Shown here piece after piece: positions 3,853 through 15,911 of a stretch of 64,000 nucleotides of DNA (within the stretch, counting starts at the first letter, position 1; each line of letters opens with the position of its first letter). The notes below the pieces were generated by a model. The model was not told where the DNA came from. It made no database searches and was given only the letters and a program-made list of their open reading frames with translations. Origin of the DNA: Streptomyces sp. SID10853 (GTDB lineage: Bacteria > Actinomycetota > Actinomycetes > Streptomycetales > Streptomycetaceae); the NCBI RefSeq assembly GCF_010548145.1, contig NZ_JAAGLN010000007.1, positions 1-64,000 of the forward strand, in the 5' to 3' direction. Both the position numbers and the translations under genes were made by a program.

Positions 3853-4326
3853 ATGGAAGGCTTCAACAGTATGGACGCGGTGGACAGGCAGCTCATTCAG
3901 GCGCTGCGGGAGAATGGCAGGGCCTCCTACGCCGAGCTCGGGCGGCTCGTCGGGCTCTCCGGGCCCAGCGTCACCGACCGCATCAACCGTCTTGAAGCGG
4001 CCGGCGTGATCACCGGTTACCGCGCCACCGTCGACGCCAAGTCCCTCGGGCTCGGGGTGACCGCCCTCATCGGCATCTCGCTCTCGGACGCCGCCGACCA
4101 CGAGGACGTCGCCCACCGGCTCAAGGACCTGGCCGAGATCGAGGACGCCTGGTTCATCGCGGGCGACGACTCGTACATGCTCAAGGTCAGGGTCGACGAC
4201 GTGGACGGCCTGGAGCGCACGATCCGCCGGCTCAGCGGCACCCGCGGCGTCTCCCGCACCCGCACCACGATCGTGCTCTCCACCAAGTGGGAGAACCGCG
4301 TCGGAGAGCTGCCCGAGCCGAGCTGA
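3853..4326 (+). CDS. Lrp/AsnC-family transcriptional regulator
   Basis: A 157-residue regulator. The N-terminal winged helix-turn-helix spans about residues 8-55 (DRQLIQALRENGRASYAELG, then GLSGPSVTDRINRLEAAGVI) and the C-terminal RAM/effector domain covers about 65-145. Lrp proteins are octameric amino-acid-responsive regulators. A start at 3871 (MDAVDRQL), preceded by GGAAGG, is equally possible. It sits between mqnM and mqnE in the same direction, so it may control one of them or the divergent small ORF; no effector can be read from sequence. Confidence 0.9.
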   Translation: MEGFNSMDAVDRQLIQALRENGRASYAELGRLVGLSGPSVTDRINRLEAAGVITGYRATVDAKSLGLGVTALIGISLSDAADHEDVAHRLKDLAEIEDAWFIAGDDSYMLKVRVDDVDGLERTIRRLSGTRGVSRTRTTIVLSTKWENRVGELPEPS

Positions 4327-8632: not shown

Positions 8633-9289
8633 GTGAGTGCGGTCAAGGCGGCCAAGGCCAAGCGGATGCCGAGGGCGGTGCGCGAGCAGCAGATGATGGA
8701 CGCTGCCGTGCGGACGTTCGGGCAGCGCGGGTACCGGGCCGCCTCGATGGACGAGATCGCAGAGCTGGCCGGGGTCTCCAAGCCGCTGGTCTATCTCTAT
8801 CTGAACTCCAAGGAAGAGCTCTTCACCGCGTGCATCCGCCGGGAGGCCCAGGCTCTGGTCGCCGCGGTACGGGCCGGGGTGGACCCGGCCGACCCCGCGG
8901 ACCGGCAGCTCTGGCACGGCGTCGGTGCCTTCTTCGAGCACACTGCCTGCCACCCGGACGGCTGGAACGTCCTGCACCACCAGGCCCGTACGCACGGGGA
9001 GCCGTTCGCCGCCGAGGTCACCGCGATGCGCGACGAGATCACCAGCTTCGTGACGGGCCTGATCGGTGCGGCGGCGCGTGAGGCGCACCGCGACCCGGCG
9101 CTGCCCGACCGCGATGTGGCGGGCCTCGCCCAGGCGTTGGTGGGCGCGGCGGAATCCCTGGCCGGCTGGGCGAACGCGACGCCCGGAGTCTCCGCCAAGG
9201 AGGCGGCGTCGACGCTGATGAACTTCGCGTGGGCGGGCCTGGAGAACCTTATGAACGGGGAACGCTGGGCGCCGTCACCACGCCGGTGA
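8633..9289 (+). CDS. TetR-family transcriptional regulator
   Basis: A 218-residue repressor with an N-terminal TetR helix-turn-helix at about residues 15-62 (MMDAAVRTFGQRGYRAASMD, then GVSKPLVYLYLNSKEELF). The ligand-binding half is helical with no recognisable effector motif. GTG 8633 follows GGAGGGG. Its 3' end overlaps the convergent dehydratase gene by 41 bp. Because the nearby fatty-acid genes share a 14-bp palindrome of a size typical for TetR dimers, this protein is the likeliest ligand of those sites, which is inference. Confidence 0.9.
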   Translation: MSAVKAAKAKRMPRAVREQQMMDAAVRTFGQRGYRAASMDEIAELAGVSKPLVYLYLNSKEELFTACIRREAQALVAAVRAGVDPADPADRQLWHGVGAFFEHTACHPDGWNVLHHQARTHGEPFAAEVTAMRDEITSFVTGLIGAAAREAHRDPALPDRDVAGLAQALVGAAESLAGWANATPGVSAKEAASTLMNFAWAGLENLMNGERWAPSPRR

Positions 9290-10208
9290 GGTGCACCCGT
9301 TCCCCCGCGTCCGGGCCCCGGCCCCGGCTCCGTACCGCGAAGTGACCGTCCCCGGCCGCGAACGTGACGGTTCCCGGCAGCAGCACCGGCGCCCTGAACT
9401 CGATCCGCACGTGGACGGCGTCCGGGGTCCCGGCCTCCGCCAGACAGCGGGCGGCCGTCCACATGCCGTGGGCGATGGCGCGCGGAAAGCCGAAGAGCTT
9501 CGCGGTCAGCGGGGACAGGTGGATCGGGTTGCGGTCCCCGGAAGCGGCGCCGTAACGACGCCCGAGCCCGGCGGGAAGCTCCCAGGTGGCGGTGGTGGCG
9601 GTGATGGCCGTGTCGGTGTCGGCGGCCGCGTCGGTGCCGTTCACGGTGGTCGCGGTGCCGGCGGCCGTGTCGGTGGCGGCGGCCGTGGCGGTGCGGTCGT
9701 GACCGTCCGTACGGGCCACGGTTCCGTCCGGCGTCGCCGAATGCCGGGCCAGATACGTACTGCGCGACTCCCAGACCAGCTCACCGGCGAGCCGCGCCTC
9801 GGTCACCATGACGACCTCGGTCCCGCGCCGGTGCGGCCGGAGCTCCTGCGCGTACACGGTCAGTTCGGGACGGGAGTCCAGGGGCAGGGCGCGCCACTGG
9901 ATGATCTCGATGCCGGTGTGGACGAGCCCGAGGACCGGCAGCGGGAAGTTTCGTGCGGTCATCAGCCGCATGGCCAGCGGAAAGCCGAGCACGTGCGGAT
10001 AGGTGAGGGGAAGCGAGCCGGCCTGCCCGAACCCGCAGACCCGGGCGTACGAGCGCAGCCGCCCGGGCTCGACCCGGGCCCCGGGCCGCACCAGCCGGTC
10101 CGCGGGCAGCGGCGCCTCGGCGGACACGGCCCGCTTGAAGGGCGAGGCCAGCGCACCGCGCACCATGGAGGGCAGCAGGCCGGGGGAGTGCGGGGGGCGG
10201 TCACTCAT
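9249..10208 (-). CDS. MaoC-like (hot-dog) 3-hydroxyacyl dehydratase
   Basis: A 319-residue double hot-dog protein. The C-terminal half has the MaoC hydratase motif: YGAASGDRNPIHLSPLTAKL and FPRAIAHGMW, with the catalytic Asp/His pair. Such enzymes dehydrate 3-hydroxyacyl thioesters, as HTD2/HtdX do beside FabG4 in mycobacteria. Between the halves lies a ~45-residue Thr/Ala/Asp-rich insert encoded by short repeats (about 9590-9715). The start ATG at 10208 was chosen over a GTG at 10337 because homology begins there. A TTACTC/GAGTAA operator lies 38-51 bp upstream. Confidence 0.87.
   Translation of the reverse strand: MSDRPPHSPGLLPSMVRGALASPFKRAVSAEAPLPADRLVRPGARVEPGRLRSYARVCGFGQAGSLPLTYPHVLGFPLAMRLMTARNFPLPVLGLVHTGIEIIQWRALPLDSRPELTVYAQELRPHRRGTEVVMVTEARLAGELVWESRSTYLARHSATPDGTVARTDGHDRTATAAATDTAAGTATTVNGTDAAADTDTAITATTATWELPAGLGRRYGAASGDRNPIHLSPLTAKLFGFPRAIAHGMWTAARCLAEAGTPDAVHVRIEFRAPVLLPGTVTFAAGDGHFAVRSRGRGPDAGERVHLTGVVTAPSVPRS
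9590..9715 (-). repeat. Low-complexity tandem repeat within dehydratase gene
   Basis: Runs of GGTGGCGGTGNNGGC-type units encode a Thr/Ala/Asp-rich linker between the two hot-dog halves. The frame is kept, so it acts as a flexible linker. Confidence 0.7.
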
Positions 10209-10245: not shown

Positions 10246-10259
10246 TTACTCCTGAGTAA
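10246..10259. promoter_or_regulatory. Palindromic operator TTACTC-CT-GAGTAA
   Basis: A perfect 6-2-6 palindrome in the divergent region between the dehydratase (start 10208, minus) and the lipoprotein (start 10373, plus). It is followed after GG by a degenerate second copy, TTACCTGTGGGTCA. The same arrangement occurs at 12517-12546. Size and symmetry fit a TetR-family dimer. Confidence 0.8.
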
Positions 10260-10372
10260 GGTTACCTGTGGGTCAGGTTCTGGTCGAGGCGGCGGGCCCG
10301 GCGCCCGGTACGGATTACGAGCATGAGTCCTGTACAAGGGTGTTGCTCGTAGGCAACCGATAAGGGGAAGGC

Positions 10373-11137
10373 ATGAAGGCAGTCCGAACCGCCGCGGCCT
10401 GCGGCTGTGTGCTGCTCGCCGTGGGCTGCGGCTCCTCCGGGAAACACGATGTCTCCTCGCCGTCCCCCAGTGCGTCGGCGGCGAGCCCGGCGCCGCCGGC
10501 CGACAAGGGCCCGGTGTGCGACGGGGATCCGGCGGCGAAGGGGTTCCATGTGCTGCGCGGTGGGTCCGTCGAGCTGCCCGGCGGGGCCGGGGCCGTCTCG
10601 TACCAGGAGGCGCGGGCGGACGGCTCGCGCCGTACGGCGGTGCTGGGCACCGGGGCGGGTGCCGGCACCGGTACGGCGGGAGCCGGTTCCCGGGGCTGGA
10701 CCGTGAAGCCGGGGCAGGCCGTCACCGTGGGCGGTGCCTCGTACACGGTCGCGCAGATCTGCACCTACCGAGTCGTCCTCACACCGAAGGGCCAGAAGAA
10801 CGTGACCGAGTCACCGCAGCCCAGCTCCGCGGCCACCTGGCCGTCCCTGACCGACGGGCGTTTCCGCCTCAGGTGGCATGTGCCGAACAACGAGTACAGC
10901 GGGCAGTACAGCGCCGTCGTGACGGAGATCAACCCCGGCCCGCGCGCCGATATCGGCATCACCGGCCGGGACGGCGGGAGCGCCGCCTACCGGGACGCCC
11001 GGGTGGGCGACACCCTGGAGTTCGCCGGCCGGCTGTGGAAGGTGGCGGCCATCGGGACCGGTGACGGCAGCCCCGCCGAGAGCAACCCGCACTCCGGGTA
11101 TGTGGACCTGGAGCTGGTCGGGCCGGCGGGCGGCTGA
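10373..11137 (+). CDS. Putative secreted lipoprotein, unknown function
   Basis: A 254-residue protein with an N-terminal lipoprotein signal: MKAVRTAAACGCV then lipobox LAVGC, lipidated Cys19. The next 25 residues are a Ser/Pro/Ala-rich linker. The mature part has two similar modules, each ending in a short beta pattern (VKPGQAVTVGGASYTVAQI and VGDTLEFAGRLWKVAAIG), suggesting two related beta domains. Start ATG follows AAGGGGAAGGC. It is flanked by lipid-metabolism genes, but no role can be assigned. Confidence 0.75.
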   Translation: MKAVRTAAACGCVLLAVGCGSSGKHDVSSPSPSASAASPAPPADKGPVCDGDPAAKGFHVLRGGSVELPGGAGAVSYQEARADGSRRTAVLGTGAGAGTGTAGAGSRGWTVKPGQAVTVGGASYTVAQICTYRVVLTPKGQKNVTESPQPSSAATWPSLTDGRFRLRWHVPNNEYSGQYSAVVTEINPGPRADIGITGRDGGSAAYRDARVGDTLEFAGRLWKVAAIGTGDGSPAESNPHSGYVDLELVGPAGG

Positions 11138-11156
11138 CGCTCTCCTCCCGGTCCCG

Positions 11157-12488
11157 TCAGGCTCCCAGCAGGCTCTGGCCGCAGACCCGTACGACCTGGC
11201 CGGTCACCCCGTCCGACGCGGGGTGGGCGAACCACGCCGTCGTCTCGGCCACGTCGACCGGGAGGCCGCCCTGGCCCAGGGAGTTCATCCGGCGGCCCGC
11301 CTCGCGGATGAAGAGCGGGACCGCCGCGGTCATCTTCGTCTCGATGAAGCCGGGAGCCACCGCGTTCAGCGTGATGCCCTGTTCGGCGAGGCGGGGAGCC
11401 AGCGTCCGGACCAGGCCGATGATGCCGGCCTTGCTCGCCGCGTAGTTGGTCTGGCCGGTGTTGCCCGCGATCCCGGCGATCGACGCCGTCGCCACGATCC
11501 GGCCGCCCGCCCGCAGCGTGCCCGACTTCAGCAGGGCGTCCGTCGTGCGCAGCACGCTGTCCAGGTTCACGTCGAGCACGCTCGCCCAGCGGTCGGCCGC
11601 CATGTTGGCGAGCCGGCGGTCGCGGGTGATGCCCGCGTTGTGGACCAGGATGTCCAGGCCGTCGGGGAGTGCGGCCGCGATCCGGTCGGCCGCGTCGGGG
11701 GCGGTGATGTCCAGGGGCAGGGCGGTGCCGCCCAGCGAGTTCGCCGTACGGTCCAAGTCGGCCTGTGACTGCGGGACATCGAGGCAGACGACCTTCGCCC
11801 CGTCGCGGGCGAGGGTCGCGGCGACCGAAGCGCCGATGCCGCGCGCGGAGCCGGTGACCAGCGCCGTGCGCCCGGCGAGCGGCAGGTCCCAGCTCTCGGG
11901 GGCGGTGCTGCCGGTGTCAGGACCGGAGGCACCGCCGATCTCGATGACCTGCCCGCTCACATACGCGGACTTCGGCGACAGCAGGAACCGCAGCGTCGAC
12001 TCGGCCGCGGGTGCGGACACCGTCCTGACCAGCTGGACCGTGCGGCCCCTGCCGATCTCCTTGCCCAGCGACCGTACGAAACCCTCCAGCGCCTGCTGCG
12101 CCGCCGCCTGGTGGTGGTCGTCGGCGGACAGCGGGGCGCCGGCCACCACGACCCGGCCGCCCGCGGCGAGCGACCGTACGACGGGGTGCAGTGCGCCGTG
12201 CACCTCCGCGAGACCCGCCACCGTGGTGACGCCGGTCGCGTCCAGCACCACGCCCGCGAGCCTGCCGCCGTCCGCCGGGGCGCCGACGACCGTGAGGCCG
12301 GTGCGCGCGAGGACTCCGGCCAGGCCGGGCAGGGGCGCCCCGCCGGCCGTCAGATGCAGCAAGGAGCCTTCGAGGCCCGGGTGTTCGGCCGACCAGCGGC
12401 GCAGCTGCGCCGGCTGCGGCAGCCCGAGCCTGCCTGTCAGGAATCGGCCGGGTGCTGTGCCGGTGAAGTGCAGATAGCGATCGGCCAT
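11157..12488 (-). CDS. Long FabG-type 3-oxoacyl reductase (SDR)
   Basis: A 443-residue protein. Residues about 205-443 form a short-chain dehydrogenase/reductase: cofactor motif TGSARGIG at about 210-217, NAG after the fourth strand, and catalytic YxxxK in NYAASKAG near 348-352. The first ~200 residues are a second, degenerate Rossmann-like domain, as in mycobacterial high-molecular-weight FabG4 (Rv0242c type), which reduces long 3-oxoacyl-CoA. Homologues sit beside a MaoC dehydratase and a thiolase, as here. It is divergent from the thiolase, with tandem operators between them. Confidence 0.9.
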   Translation of the reverse strand: MADRYLHFTGTAPGRFLTGRLGLPQPAQLRRWSAEHPGLEGSLLHLTAGGAPLPGLAGVLARTGLTVVGAPADGGRLAGVVLDATGVTTVAGLAEVHGALHPVVRSLAAGGRVVVAGAPLSADDHHQAAAQQALEGFVRSLGKEIGRGRTVQLVRTVSAPAAESTLRFLLSPKSAYVSGQVIEIGGASGPDTGSTAPESWDLPLAGRTALVTGSARGIGASVAATLARDGAKVVCLDVPQSQADLDRTANSLGGTALPLDITAPDAADRIAAALPDGLDILVHNAGITRDRRLANMAADRWASVLDVNLDSVLRTTDALLKSGTLRAGGRIVATASIAGIAGNTGQTNYAASKAGIIGLVRTLAPRLAEQGITLNAVAPGFIETKMTAAVPLFIREAGRRMNSLGQGGLPVDVAETTAWFAHPASDGVTGQVVRVCGQSLLGA

Positions 12489-12516
12489 TGTCCGGACTCC
12501 TTGTGGCGTCGTAGAT

Positions 12517-12546
12517 TTACTCTTGAGTAAGGTTACTCAAGAGTCA
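12517..12546. promoter_or_regulatory. Tandem palindromic operators between fabG-like and thiolase genes
   Basis: TTACTC-TT-GAGTAA (12517-12530, perfect) then GG then TTACTC-AA-GAGTCA (12533-12546, one mismatch). They lie 29 bp upstream of the reductase start (12488) and 70 bp upstream of the thiolase start (12616), so one regulator could control both divergent genes. The same composite site stands upstream of the dehydratase. Confidence 0.85.
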
Positions 12547-12615
12547 GGAGTTGGTCGAGATGGTGTGGGTCGGAACAGGGGCCTTCGGTACAGGCCCCGT
12601 CGGAACGGGGCCCCG

Positions 12616-13866
12616 ATGACGCCCCTCAAGGTCGCCGTACTCGGCGGCAGCCGCATCCCGTTCGCCCGCTCGGACGGCCCGTACGCCACCGTGTCCAACC
12701 AGACCATGCTGACGGCGGCCCTGGACGGACTGGTCGAGCGGTTCGGCCTGGAGGGCGAGCGGATCGGCGAGTTCGTCGGGGGCGCGGTCCTCAAGCACAG
12801 CCGCGACTTCAACCTCGCGCGCGAGACCGTGCTCGGCTCGCGCCTCGACCCGCGCACACCCGCGTACGACATCCAGCAGGCGTGCGGTACGGGCCTCCAG
12901 GCCGTCATCGCCACCGCCAACAAGATCGCGCTCGGTGCGGTCGACTCGGCCGTCGCGGGCGGCTCCGACACCGCGAGCGACGCCCCGCTCGGCGTCAACG
13001 ATCAGCTGCGGAAGATCCTCCTCGAAGCGCGCCGGGCCACATCGGTGAGCGGTCGGCTCAGGGCGCTCGCCCGCGTACGCCCCGGCCACCTCGTCCCCGA
13101 CATCCCGCGCAACGCCGAGCCCCGAACCGGGCTTTCGATGGGGGAGCACGCGGCGCGCACCGCCCGCGAGTGGGACATCGGCCGCGCCGAGCAGGACGCG
13201 CTGGCCGCCACCAGCCACCAGCGGCTGGCCGCCGCCTACGAACGCGGCTTCTTCCAGGACCTGGTGACGCCCTTCCACGGGCTGGCCCGGGACCAGAACC
13301 TGCGGCCCGGGTCCACCGTGGAGAAACTCGCCACGCTGAAACCGGTGTTCGGCGCCGGAGAGCCCGGCGCGACCATGACGGCGGGCAACTCGACCCCGCT
13401 CACCGACGGCGCCGCGACCGTCCTCCTGGCGAGCGAGGAGTGGGCGCGCGAGCGTGGACTCGAACCGCTGGCGTATCTGACGCTGTACGAGACGGCGGCC
13501 GTCGACTACGTCAACGGCCCCGACGGGCTGCTGATGGCGCCCGCGTACGCCGTCCCGCGCATGCTGGAGCGCGCCGGCCTCACCCTGGACGACTTCGACC
13601 TCTTCGAGGTGCACGAGGCGTTCGCGTCCCAGGTGCTGGCCACGCTCGCCGCCTGGGAGAAGCAGGGCCTCGCCCCGGTCGACCGGGCGAAGCTCAACGT
13701 AGCGGGCTCCTCGCTCGCCACGGGACACCCCTTCGCCGCGACCGGCGCCCGCATTGTCGCCACCCTGGCCAAGCTGCTCGCGGAGCGGGAGGCTCCTGGG
13801 CGGGGGCTGATCTCCATCTGCGCTGCGGGCGGCCAGGGCGTGACGGCGGTGCTCGAACGCCCCTGA
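12616..13866 (+). CDS. Acetyl-CoA C-acyltransferase (thiolase)
   Basis: A 416-residue thiolase. Active-site nucleophile Cys90 is in QQACGTGLQAV, His371 in ATGHPFAATGAR and the second Cys402 in ICAAGGQGV, all at expected spacing. Thiolases cleave 3-oxoacyl-CoA or condense acyl-CoAs; with the neighbouring FabG4-like reductase and MaoC dehydratase this looks like a fatty-acid beta-oxidation or chain-modification set (FadA/FadI type). Homology starts at the ATG at 12616; an upstream ATG at 12523 adds an Arg/Gly-rich stretch with no family match. Confidence 0.92.
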   Translation: MTPLKVAVLGGSRIPFARSDGPYATVSNQTMLTAALDGLVERFGLEGERIGEFVGGAVLKHSRDFNLARETVLGSRLDPRTPAYDIQQACGTGLQAVIATANKIALGAVDSAVAGGSDTASDAPLGVNDQLRKILLEARRATSVSGRLRALARVRPGHLVPDIPRNAEPRTGLSMGEHAARTAREWDIGRAEQDALAATSHQRLAAAYERGFFQDLVTPFHGLARDQNLRPGSTVEKLATLKPVFGAGEPGATMTAGNSTPLTDGAATVLLASEEWARERGLEPLAYLTLYETAAVDYVNGPDGLLMAPAYAVPRMLERAGLTLDDFDLFEVHEAFASQVLATLAAWEKQGLAPVDRAKLNVAGSSLATGHPFAATGARIVATLAKLLAEREAPGRGLISICAAGGQGVTAVLERP

Positions 13867-13991: not shown

Positions 13992-15911
13992 GTGTCCGTG
14001 TCCGTGTCAGTGCAGCCGCTGGAACCGCACAAACGGCGCGTGGACGGGGTGGTGCGGGAGGTCTCCGTACCACCGCTGGTCCGGCCCGTCGAGCGCGGTT
14101 CGCTCGCCGACATCCCCTTCGACAACGCCCACCAGGCACCCGACGATCCGGTCCTCAGCAGAAAGCAGCCGGACGGCCGCTGGGCCGACGTCTCGTCCAT
14201 GGAGTTCGCCGTCGAGGTGCAGGCCGTCGCCAAGGGGCTGATCGCGGCGGGCCTGGCGGCCGGCGACCGTCTCGCGATCATGGCCAGGACCACCTACGAG
14301 TGGACCCTCCTGGACTTCGCCGCCTGGGCGGCCGGCCTGGTCACCGTCCCCGTCTACCCGACGTCCTCCGCCTTCCAGGCCCGCTGGATCCTCCAGGACT
14401 CCGGCGCGGTCGCCTGCGCCGTCGAGAACAAGGAGCAGGCCCGGCTGATCAGCGTGGAGCGCCGGCAGCTGCCCGCTCTGGCGCACCTCTGGGAGTTCGA
14501 CACCGGCGCCATCGGCGTCCTGAAGGACCTGGGCCGGGACGTACCCGACGCCGCGGTCGCCGAACGCCGGGCCGGGCGCTCGCCGTCGTCCGTCGCCACC
14601 CTGATCTACACATCGGGCACCACGGGCCGCCCCAAGGGCTGCGTCCTCACCCACGCCAACTTCTTCGCCGAGGTGGACAACGCGGTCGAGCTGCTCCACC
14701 CCGTCTTCAAGTCGGTGAGCAAGGACCCGGCGTCGACCCTGCTCTTCCTGCCGCTCTCCCACGTCTTCGGCCGGATGGTGGCGATCGGCTGTCTGCGCGC
14801 CCGCGTACGCCTCGGGCACGCGCCCAGCATCAGTACGGAGGACCTGCTGGCGGACCTCGCCGGGTTCCGCCCGACGTTCCTGCTGGCGATCCCGTACGTC
14901 CTGGAGAAGGTCTACAACACCGGCCGCGCCACCGCCGAGAAGATGGGCCGGGCCGCGTCCTTCGACCGCGCGGCGCGGATCGCGCAGCGGTACGGGGAGG
15001 CGCTGGAGGCCGTCGAGCACGGCACGGGCCCGGGTCCGGGGCTCGGACTGCGCCTGGCGCACGCCGTGTACGACCCGCTGGTCTACCGGCGGATACGGGC
15101 GGCGCTCGGCGGCCGGGTGAAGTACGCGATCTGCGGCGGCTCACCGCTCGGCCACCGGCTCGCGGCGTTCTACGCGGGCGCCGGAATCCAGATCTTCGAG
15201 GGGTACGGCCTCACGGAGACGACCGCAGCGGCGACGGTCACCCCGCCGCTGCGGCCCCGGCTCGGCACGGTCGGCTGGCCGCTGCCCGGCACGGCGGTCC
15301 GGATCGCGGACGACGGCGAGGTGCTGCTCAGCGGCGGCCAGGTATTCGGCGGCTACTGGGACGGGGAGCGAGGCGAGCCCACCGGCGCGGGCCCCGGCTC
15401 CGCTGCCGGCTCTTCCCCCGGCTCCGGCCAGTGGTTCGCGACGGGCGACGTGGGCGCGCTGGACGAGGACGGCTACCTCACGATCACCGGCCGCAAGAAG
15501 GACCTCATCATCACCTCGGGCGGCAAGAACGTGGCGCCCGCGCCCCTGGAGGACTGGCTGCGGGCGCACCCGCTGGTCGGCCAGTGCATGGTCGTCGGCG
15601 ACAACCGCAGCTATGTCACGGCCCTGATCACGCTGGAGCCGGACGGCCTCGCGCACTGGCGGCAGATGCGGAAGAAGACGGGCGTCCCGATGCGGGAGCT
15701 GGTCCAGGACGAGGAGCTGCGGGGAGCGCTGCAGCGGGCGGTCGACGAGGCGAACCGGCTGGTGTCGCGCGCCGAGTCGATCCGGAAGTTCGCGGTCCTC
15801 CCGGTGGACTTCACGGAGGAGAACGGGCATCTCACGCCGTCGCTGAAGCTGAAGCGGGCGGCGATAGCCGAGGACTTCGCCGACGAGATCGAGAAGCTGT
15901 ACCGGCGGTAG
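13992..15911 (+). CDS. Long-chain fatty acid--CoA ligase (AMP-forming, FadD15-like)
   Basis: A 639-residue adenylate-forming enzyme activating fatty acids to acyl-CoA through acyl-AMP. The P-loop YTSGTTGRPKG is at about residues 204-214, the A5 motif GYGLTETT near 404-411, TGD about 85 residues later, and GRKKDLIITSGGKNVAP carries the C-terminal hinge. A Gly/Ser/Pro-rich loop (GAGPGSAAGSSPGSG) lies just before the TGD motif. GTG 13992 follows GAGGAG. It ends the lipid gene group and shares a terminator with the convergent cold-shock gene. Confidence 0.93.
   Translation: MSVSVSVQPLEPHKRRVDGVVREVSVPPLVRPVERGSLADIPFDNAHQAPDDPVLSRKQPDGRWADVSSMEFAVEVQAVAKGLIAAGLAAGDRLAIMARTTYEWTLLDFAAWAAGLVTVPVYPTSSAFQARWILQDSGAVACAVENKEQARLISVERRQLPALAHLWEFDTGAIGVLKDLGRDVPDAAVAERRAGRSPSSVATLIYTSGTTGRPKGCVLTHANFFAEVDNAVELLHPVFKSVSKDPASTLLFLPLSHVFGRMVAIGCLRARVRLGHAPSISTEDLLADLAGFRPTFLLAIPYVLEKVYNTGRATAEKMGRAASFDRAARIAQRYGEALEAVEHGTGPGPGLGLRLAHAVYDPLVYRRIRAALGGRVKYAICGGSPLGHRLAAFYAGAGIQIFEGYGLTETTAAATVTPPLRPRLGTVGWPLPGTAVRIADDGEVLLSGGQVFGGYWDGERGEPTGAGPGSAAGSSPGSGQWFATGDVGALDEDGYLTITGRKKDLIITSGGKNVAPAPLEDWLRAHPLVGQCMVVGDNRSYVTALITLEPDGLAHWRQMRKKTGVPMRELVQDEELRGALQRAVDEANRLVSRAESIRKFAVLPVDFTEENGHLTPSLKLKRAAIAEDFADEIEKLYRR

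Follow-up and report, generated by a model that had tools for sequence, protein, structure and literature searches.

The locus and its palindromes

The window analysed here is a stretch of 64,000 nucleotides from Streptomyces sp. SID10853 (assembly GCF_010548145.1, contig NZ_JAAGLN010000007.1, positions 1 to 64,000). It carries a group of lipid genes encoding a MaoC-type hydratase (maoC), a FabG4-like reductase (fabG4), a thiolase and an acyl-CoA ligase-like protein, next to a gene for a TetR-family regulator. The palindrome TTACTC-NN-GAGTAA, which lies in the promoter regions of these lipid genes, is treated below as the putative operator of this TetR protein. Comparison loci carry labels such as L111 and contigs labels such as C130. 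The genes and palindromic units are the following:

8633–9289, + strand: TetR-family regulator, FdmR-like, candidate repressor, GTG start (Pfam TetR_N and TetR_C_46)
9249–10208, − strand: maoC, MaoC-type hydratase/dehydratase, putative target gene (Pfam MaoC_dehydratas, 7.5e-12)
10246–10259: perfect putative operator unit TTACTCCTGAGTAA, gene-proximal in the maoC promoter, one of the three exact sites of the genome
10262–10275: degenerate second unit of the putative operator, TTACCTGTGGGTCA, starting 16 bp from the first unit; a count by eye gives 4 mismatches
11157–12488, − strand: fabG4, FabG4-like 3-oxoacyl reductase, putative target gene (NCBIfam NF006110, 601.9 bits, cut-off 410)
12517–12530: perfect putative operator unit TTACTCTTGAGTAA, fabG4-proximal, conserved in relatives
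12533–12546: second unit of the putative operator, TTACTCAAGAGTCA, conserved, with 1 mismatch and starting 16 bp from the first unit
12616–13866, + strand: thiolase, putative divergent target gene (NCBIfam NF006740, 706.3 bits, cut-off 539)
13992–15911, + strand: acyl-CoA ligase-like protein (Pfam AMP-binding), likely in the thiolase transcription unit

The original prediction had described two perfect palindromes, each followed by GG and a second copy (degenerate at the first site, near-perfect at the second), in the promoters of a MaoC dehydratase, a FabG4-like reductase and a thiolase. This description agrees with the sequence in every part: both palindromes are exact, the second copies carry the four mismatches and one mismatch listed above, and the gene identities and positions are those given by Pfam and NCBIfam. 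At both sites, GG separates the two units, whose starts lie 16 bp apart. The operator lies upstream of the three ATG codons, at 28 bp for FabG4, 37 bp for MaoC and 69 bp for the thiolase. The exact motif occurs twice in the window and never in dinucleotide shuffles (n = 100). With up to 3 mismatches, 5 matches are found for 4.75 expected, so that such loose matches carry no meaning.

Around these sites, the 3' end of maoC overlaps that of the TetR gene, and the acyl-CoA ligase match is present in 67 of 71 fabG4 loci of Streptomyces (counted from the locus rows). The middle of MaoC is a low-complexity stretch rich in Thr, Ala and Asp (window positions 9560–9760), within which a strong AT skew (−0.81) is seen at 9600–9699. 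A scan of the window against Rfam gave no match.

Distribution of the site in the genome

The assembly searched, that of a high-GC actinomycete, comprises 7.77 Mb in 521 contigs and is 94% complete. It contains only three exact palindromes, the two of the window and one at C130:4807, directly upstream of a gene for an SCP2-type carrier followed by an acyl-CoA dehydrogenase gene (Pfam check of this operon made on the copy of one relative). Each of the three therefore precedes lipid genes, and the genome scan proposed with the original prediction thus shows a site that is not scattered at random. With up to 2 mismatches, 22 sites are found in the assembly against 30 for a mirror-image control; there is no excess, and a wider regulon acting through loose single sites is unsupported.

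A composite-site model based on sequence only (R1) was built from 28 distinct composites out of 41 extracted, duplicates and the atypical L279 being removed. Searched against the assembly with a limit on the expectation value of E = 10, it recovers the three promoters (E 1.7e-10, 7.1e-9 and 3.9e-7, all E-values being rough), and two further hits are two of these sites read on the opposite strand. No other promoter appears among the 150 of 486 first-look candidates that were scored. As the model includes this genome's own sites, their recovery is by construction and only the absence of others is informative.

A few degenerate sites lie elsewhere in the genome. Sites with 1–2 mismatches occur beside N-acetyltransferase and YceI genes (C95), near a luciferase-like gene (C315) and near an aldehyde dehydrogenase gene (C81). 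The promoter of a class 2 lipase gene (C245; L018:3066-4043) carries a pair like TTACCGACGCGTAA / TTACTCGTGCGTAA, with a right half GCGTAA and a spacing of 28 bp. This pair is conserved in 15 of 15 orthologues (L341–L355) and absent from three paralogues; it may be a weaker site of the same repressor or a site of another regulator.

Conservation of the site and its association with the TetR gene

In 71 Streptomyces loci, including that of the window, the 300 bp upstream of fabG4 were searched for the best match. It has 0, 1 or 2 mismatches in 46, 20 and 5 loci, respectively (66/71 with at most one), while the mirror pattern never falls below 3 mismatches in the same loci. The site is also conserved in mycobacteria, for which the best 80 of 526 relatives by TetR alignment were retained and 64 used, 16 being left out as fabG4 and fadA were not both in the fetched stretch. 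Indeed, the divergent fabG4/fadA promoter carries a match with 0, 1 or 2 mismatches in 42, 21 and 1 of these 64 loci (63/64 with at most one), and the half-sites TTACT and AGTAA are invariant in all of them.

A further 21 fabG4 loci were sampled across the class (TetR match threshold 80 bits, site defined by at most 2 mismatches). Here the site is present in seven of the eight loci with a TetR match and in none of the 13 loci without one (Fisher p 7e-5). Furthermore, the TetR gene itself is preceded by a site with at most 1 mismatch in 10 of the 64 mycobacterial loci and in five further loci (L253, L255, L263, L299 and L091), which suggests that the regulator controls its own gene in some relatives.

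Across 15 genomes carrying the cluster, 21 exact sites are found against none for the mirror control, and 18 of them precede fabG4/fadA, maoC, SCP2 or acyl-CoA dehydrogenase genes. By our own count, 11 lie in fabG4/fadA promoters, one before maoC and two before SCP2. Four others, from three genomes of the mycobacterial family, precede paired acyl-CoA dehydrogenase genes, which we take to be fadE24-fadE23; Pfam confirmed acyl-CoA dehydrogenases in the two of these three loci that were run. The remaining three sites (L135:4045, L139:2956 and L141:4042) lie before flavin monooxygenase-like, short-chain dehydrogenase and universal stress protein genes, respectively, which are possible extra targets.

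Variants of the arrangement were also observed. In L138, from the mycobacterial family, two perfect palindromes precede paired acyl-CoA dehydrogenase genes (4055-4089) at a spacing of 21 bp, i.e. two helical turns, against 16 bp elsewhere. In another family, a related palindrome, TTACTGCGCAGTAA, lies about 130–145 bp before a TetR match that is 38% identical (L116:6523-6536 and L117:6459-6472), with no fabG4 cluster in the fetched stretch. In a third family, TetR and SCP2 genes are divergent and separated by the imperfect units TTACCCATCAGTAA and TTACTCATTGGTAA, 16 bp apart (L101:9612-9641).

FabG4 was tallied in at least 26 of 118 and at least 71 of 150 genomes, the latter being the Streptomyces sample, with 10–12 candidates scored per genome. 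The TetR gene is nearly universal in the Streptomyces sample, since it is present in 16 of 18 genomes without a FabG4 hit (one match being partial), so that the tally of 71/150 is a lower bound. In 6 of 10 loci inspected among the genomes without a FabG4 hit, maoC adjoins the TetR gene.

Architecture of the putative operators and proposed promoters

The mycobacterial promoters carry one palindrome, as a second unit (at most 3 mismatches, in either form) is found at the neighbouring position in none of the 64. In Streptomyces, a second unit is present in 68 of the 71 loci and follows two designs. In the first design (33 loci), it is a 14-bp unit with at most 3 mismatches, 16 bp away from the first. 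In the second (35 loci), its place is taken by the 13-bp unit TTACC-N3-GGTAA, without mismatch in 33 loci and with one in two. L255, L263 and L279 have no clear second unit, L279 (3 mismatches) being placed in this group. A search of 28 genomes found the SCP2-FadE operon in 11, and all 11 show tandem units at 16 bp, the second with 1–3 mismatches. Among the few proteins aligned, the sequence SKPLVYLYL within the DNA-binding domain of the TetR protein is identical across both design groups; the difference between the two designs therefore seems to lie in the DNA.

The operators overlap proposed promoters of the same form in front of fabG4 and maoC:

12530–12558, − strand: proposed fabG4 promoter, TCGACC-17 nt-TAACCT
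10259–10287, − strand: proposed maoC promoter, TCGACC-17 nt-TAACCT

Both maoC promoters have this pair of elements, as do 21 of the 28 fabG4 promoters of type A. Six more of the 28 have CTCGAC at that spacing, which is the same sequence one base closer. The operator covers the proposed −10 element TAACCT.

The second unit of each pair could instead be conserved promoter sequence, with a single repressor dimer on the perfect palindrome. One palindrome suffices in mycobacteria, the proposed −10 element overlaps the junction of the units, and the second unit of the window's maoC promoter has 4 mismatches. However, the second unit is itself palindromic, it exists in a 14-bp and a 13-bp form across 68 of 71 loci, and it recurs with only 1–3 mismatches at the 11 SCP2 promoters. 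On balance, a single dimer appears somewhat unlikely, although it keeps appreciable weight.

A separate putative operator in front of maoC

In Streptomyces, maoC generally follows fabG4 closely: the two genes are within 100 bp of each other in 56 of the 68 loci where maoC was found, and 66 of these 68 loci have no site upstream of maoC (at least 4 mismatches). A perfect site before maoC is found only in the window and in its relative L111, which are also the two loci with fabG4-maoC gaps near 900 bp. At the maoC promoter of L111, a similar second unit occupies the same place as in the window. The intervening gene differs between the two loci, being lipoprotein-like in the window and a different gene in L111:

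10373–11137, + strand: putative lipoprotein gene between fabG4 and maoC, outside the regulated set (sub-threshold match to DUF6406 only)

The upstream regions of maoC and fabG4 align from the proposed −35 element to the start codon with a score of 68 (best of 300 shuffles, 32), most of which comes from the operator. For the flanks alone, the score of the downstream side is reached in 5 of 2000 shuffles and that of the upstream side in 112 of 2000. The downstream flank is therefore similar beyond chance and the upstream one unclear, which makes a duplication of the promoter likely rather than proven. A foreign gene probably split the fabG4-maoC operon and the promoter-operator region was probably duplicated, so that the displaced maoC would have stayed under the same control.

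The TetR protein

The window TetR protein has a TetR_N DNA-binding domain and a predicted all-helical fold, as expected for the family. The mycobacterial protein encoded in the cluster, used as a query, retrieves it as the best match in this genome (1.6e-34; next 9.4e-20), and in the reverse direction the cluster protein ranks first in the mycobacterial genomes sampled. The window protein is thus an apparent orthologue of the mycobacterial regulator FdmR (Rv0238), to which we assign the TetR protein found beside htdX-fabG4-fadA2 in the fetched mycobacteria from the H37Rv gene order.

The nearest solved structures by sequence are 3f1b and FasR. A single-sequence model of the protein was poor (predicted local distance difference test, pLDDT, 49.9) and was replaced by an alignment-based one (pLDDT 84). 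Its closest fold neighbours are 3f1b (Z 22.2, root-mean-square deviation (rmsd) 2.1, 183 residues aligned) and FasR with DNA (Z 20.8, rmsd 2.3, 182 aligned), and Bacillus FadR is also similar (Z 19.7, rmsd 2.5, 187 aligned; FadR entries Z 18.5–19.7). These neighbours make an acyl-CoA effector likely and, from this predicted fold and the orthology with FdmR, we infer that it may be a long-chain acyl-CoA. Membership in two named families was rejected. For FasR (NCBIfam NF053731), the score is 98.6 bits for a cut-off of 330, and the 25-mer bound by FasR lacks the palindrome of the window; for Bacillus FadR (NCBIfam NF053878), it is 43.2 bits for a cut-off of 200.

Proposed regulation and alternative explanations

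Taken together, these comparisons make it probable that the tandem palindromes are the operators of the adjacent FdmR-type TetR protein, which would repress three promoters until relieved by long-chain acyl-CoA. In the proposed mechanism, without inducer, repressor dimers would occupy both units; probably each palindrome would hold its own dimer, with about one and a half helical turns between the two. The bound repressor would cover the −10 region and the start site at the divergent promoter shared by fabG4 and the thiolase-ligase genes, at maoC's own promoter and at that of the SCP2-acyl-CoA dehydrogenase operon elsewhere in the genome. Entry of a long-chain acyl-CoA into the C-terminal pocket would release the repressor and lead to the joint induction of activation, carrier, dehydrogenation, hydration, oxidation and thiolysis functions.

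The beta-oxidation-like set described in the original prediction can be upheld and enlarged, as the acyl-CoA ligase gene follows that of the thiolase and the set extends outside the window. Ligase, SCP2 carrier, acyl-CoA dehydrogenase, MaoC hydratase, FabG-type oxidoreductase and thiolase, which make up a full breakdown cycle, appear to share one operator. The candidacy of the neighbouring TetR protein, also put forward there, now has comparative support: the site and the adjacent TetR gene co-occur in Streptomyces and mycobacteria, class-sample fabG4 loci without the TetR gene lack the site, some relatives carry sites before the TetR gene, and in mycobacteria the apparent orthologue is FdmR, a published repressor of fatty-acid degradation.

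Several observations weigh against this proposal. A strict sigma-70 consensus scan finds no promoter, so that the TCGACC-17-TAACCT assignment stays a proposed one. Six of the seven site-positive loci of the class sample come from one family, so that its counts are not independent, and the eighth locus with a TetR match, L092, lacks the site. No site precedes the window's own TetR gene (best match, 6 mismatches), and four of the 71 Streptomyces loci (L265, L271, L279 and L313) have the site without a TetR gene in the fetched stretch; two of these stretches are short ones that stop at the edge of a contig. The best NCBIfam model for the TetR protein, FasR, is that of an activator, with a score far under its cut-off. 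Lastly, a review reports that the reduction catalysed by Mycobacterium tuberculosis FabG4, with NADH, is four times faster than the oxidation, and suggests a role in elongation for this enzyme (PMC6008564).

The last two points would fit a TetR protein that activates its targets in the way FasR activates fas-acpS (PMC7382501), with a gene set devoted to acyl-chain elongation or remodelling rather than breakdown; FasR is, moreover, the second-nearest solved fold. However, the operator overlaps the proposed −10 element and start region, a position expected of a repressor, the FasR 25-mer does not include the palindrome found here, FdmR is described as a repressor (PMC12403877) and genes for an acyl-CoA dehydrogenase and a thiolase carry the operator. 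Breakdown is held to be more likely because these two enzymes belong to the set and because of the FdmR literature, and activation of an elongation pathway seems quite unlikely.

Alternatively, the sites could serve a different TetR protein or an unlinked factor, the position of the neighbouring gene being a coincidence of gene order. Many TetR relatives are encoded in the genome (at least 44 matches among the 50 of 159 candidates scored), and both the four loci lacking the TetR gene and the missing site upstream of the window's own would accord with this. Yet the site is missing from all 13 class-sample fabG4 loci without a TetR match and recurs before the TetR gene in some relatives. The same pairing exists in mycobacteria, where the TetR protein is, judging by gene order, presumably the published FdmR. 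Another regulator is therefore quite improbable. As for a chance occurrence of the palindromes in AT-rich promoters, to which the lack of any excess over controls at 2–3 mismatches might point, it can practically be dismissed in view of the exact counts, the mirror controls, the conservation across loci and the composite model.

Comparison with known systems

Regulation of the FdmR type is a known kind of system, to which the Streptomyces locus adds a new member whose operator design is its own. FdmR (Rv0238) is described as a repressor that responds to long-chain acyl-CoA and acts on genes of fatty-acid degradation and modification (PMC12403877), with fadE5 named as a target (PMC9262360). The M. 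tuberculosis genes compared are htdX (Rv0241c), fabG4 (Rv0242c) and fadA2 (Rv0243) (PMC6008564, PMC10699116). Rv0238 is among five TetR regulators retained in all mycobacteria analysed in another study, whose main text mentions it once, so that it would not figure in the motif table of that paper (PMC4482099). Furthermore, FabG4, FadA2 and FadE23 are reported to rise together in one mutant, which fits a shared regulon (PMC10999552). Within a limited search, the literature on Streptomyces yielded no description of such a regulon, and a search by the letters of the motif found nothing relevant. The primary description of FdmR is reportedly that of Dong et al. 2021.

The window TetR protein is about 40% identical to its mycobacterial counterpart and is its best match both ways; its gene is linked to the same maoC(htdX)-fabG4-fadA2 neighbours, and the comparison of sequences made here finds the same palindrome at the same fabG4/fadA promoter. 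An acyl-CoA dehydrogenase target is indicated by operators only, those of the SCP2-FadE tandem (11/11 loci). The differences lie in the architecture, with two palindromes in tandem in Streptomyces for one at the mycobacterial fabG4/fadA promoters, and in the targets. Indeed, the SCP2-fadE target and the separate maoC promoter are seen in the window's genome, and an exact site precedes another acyl-CoA dehydrogenase pair in two mycobacteria and in a further genome from their family.

Two other regulators are more distant. FasR (Rv3208) of M. tuberculosis shares the TetR fold with an acyl-CoA tunnel and is the second-nearest solved structure (30% identity), but it is an activator of fas-acpS and its 25-bp DNA does not include the palindrome found here. 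Bacillus FadR is likewise a TetR-family regulator of fatty-acid degradation, solved with stearoyl-CoA according to its entry title, but it is only 16–18% identical to the window protein and falls far below its family cut-off.

A more tentative extension, possible rather than probable, is that Streptomyces uses a cooperative two-dimer version of the FdmR switch, with 14+2+14 and 13+2+14 bp designs where mycobacteria have one palindrome. Such a switch would make the whole breakdown cycle respond to a sharply defined acyl-CoA level. The enzymes of this cycle, the MaoC hydratase and FabG-type dehydrogenase, would presumably be of (R)-type stereochemistry, so that it would be a bacterial counterpart of the peroxisomal multifunctional-enzyme-2 route. 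Its regulon would grow and be repaired by duplication of whole promoter-operator regions, as at maoC.

Acyl-CoA supply feeds antibiotic formation in Streptomyces, and for fatty-acid breakdown in this genus the locus offers an operator that can be tested, together with its candidate regulator and a defined set of genes. FdmR-type control, so far described in mycobacteria, would also be extended to a second family of actinobacteria, in which the architecture differs by the presence of two palindromes instead of one.

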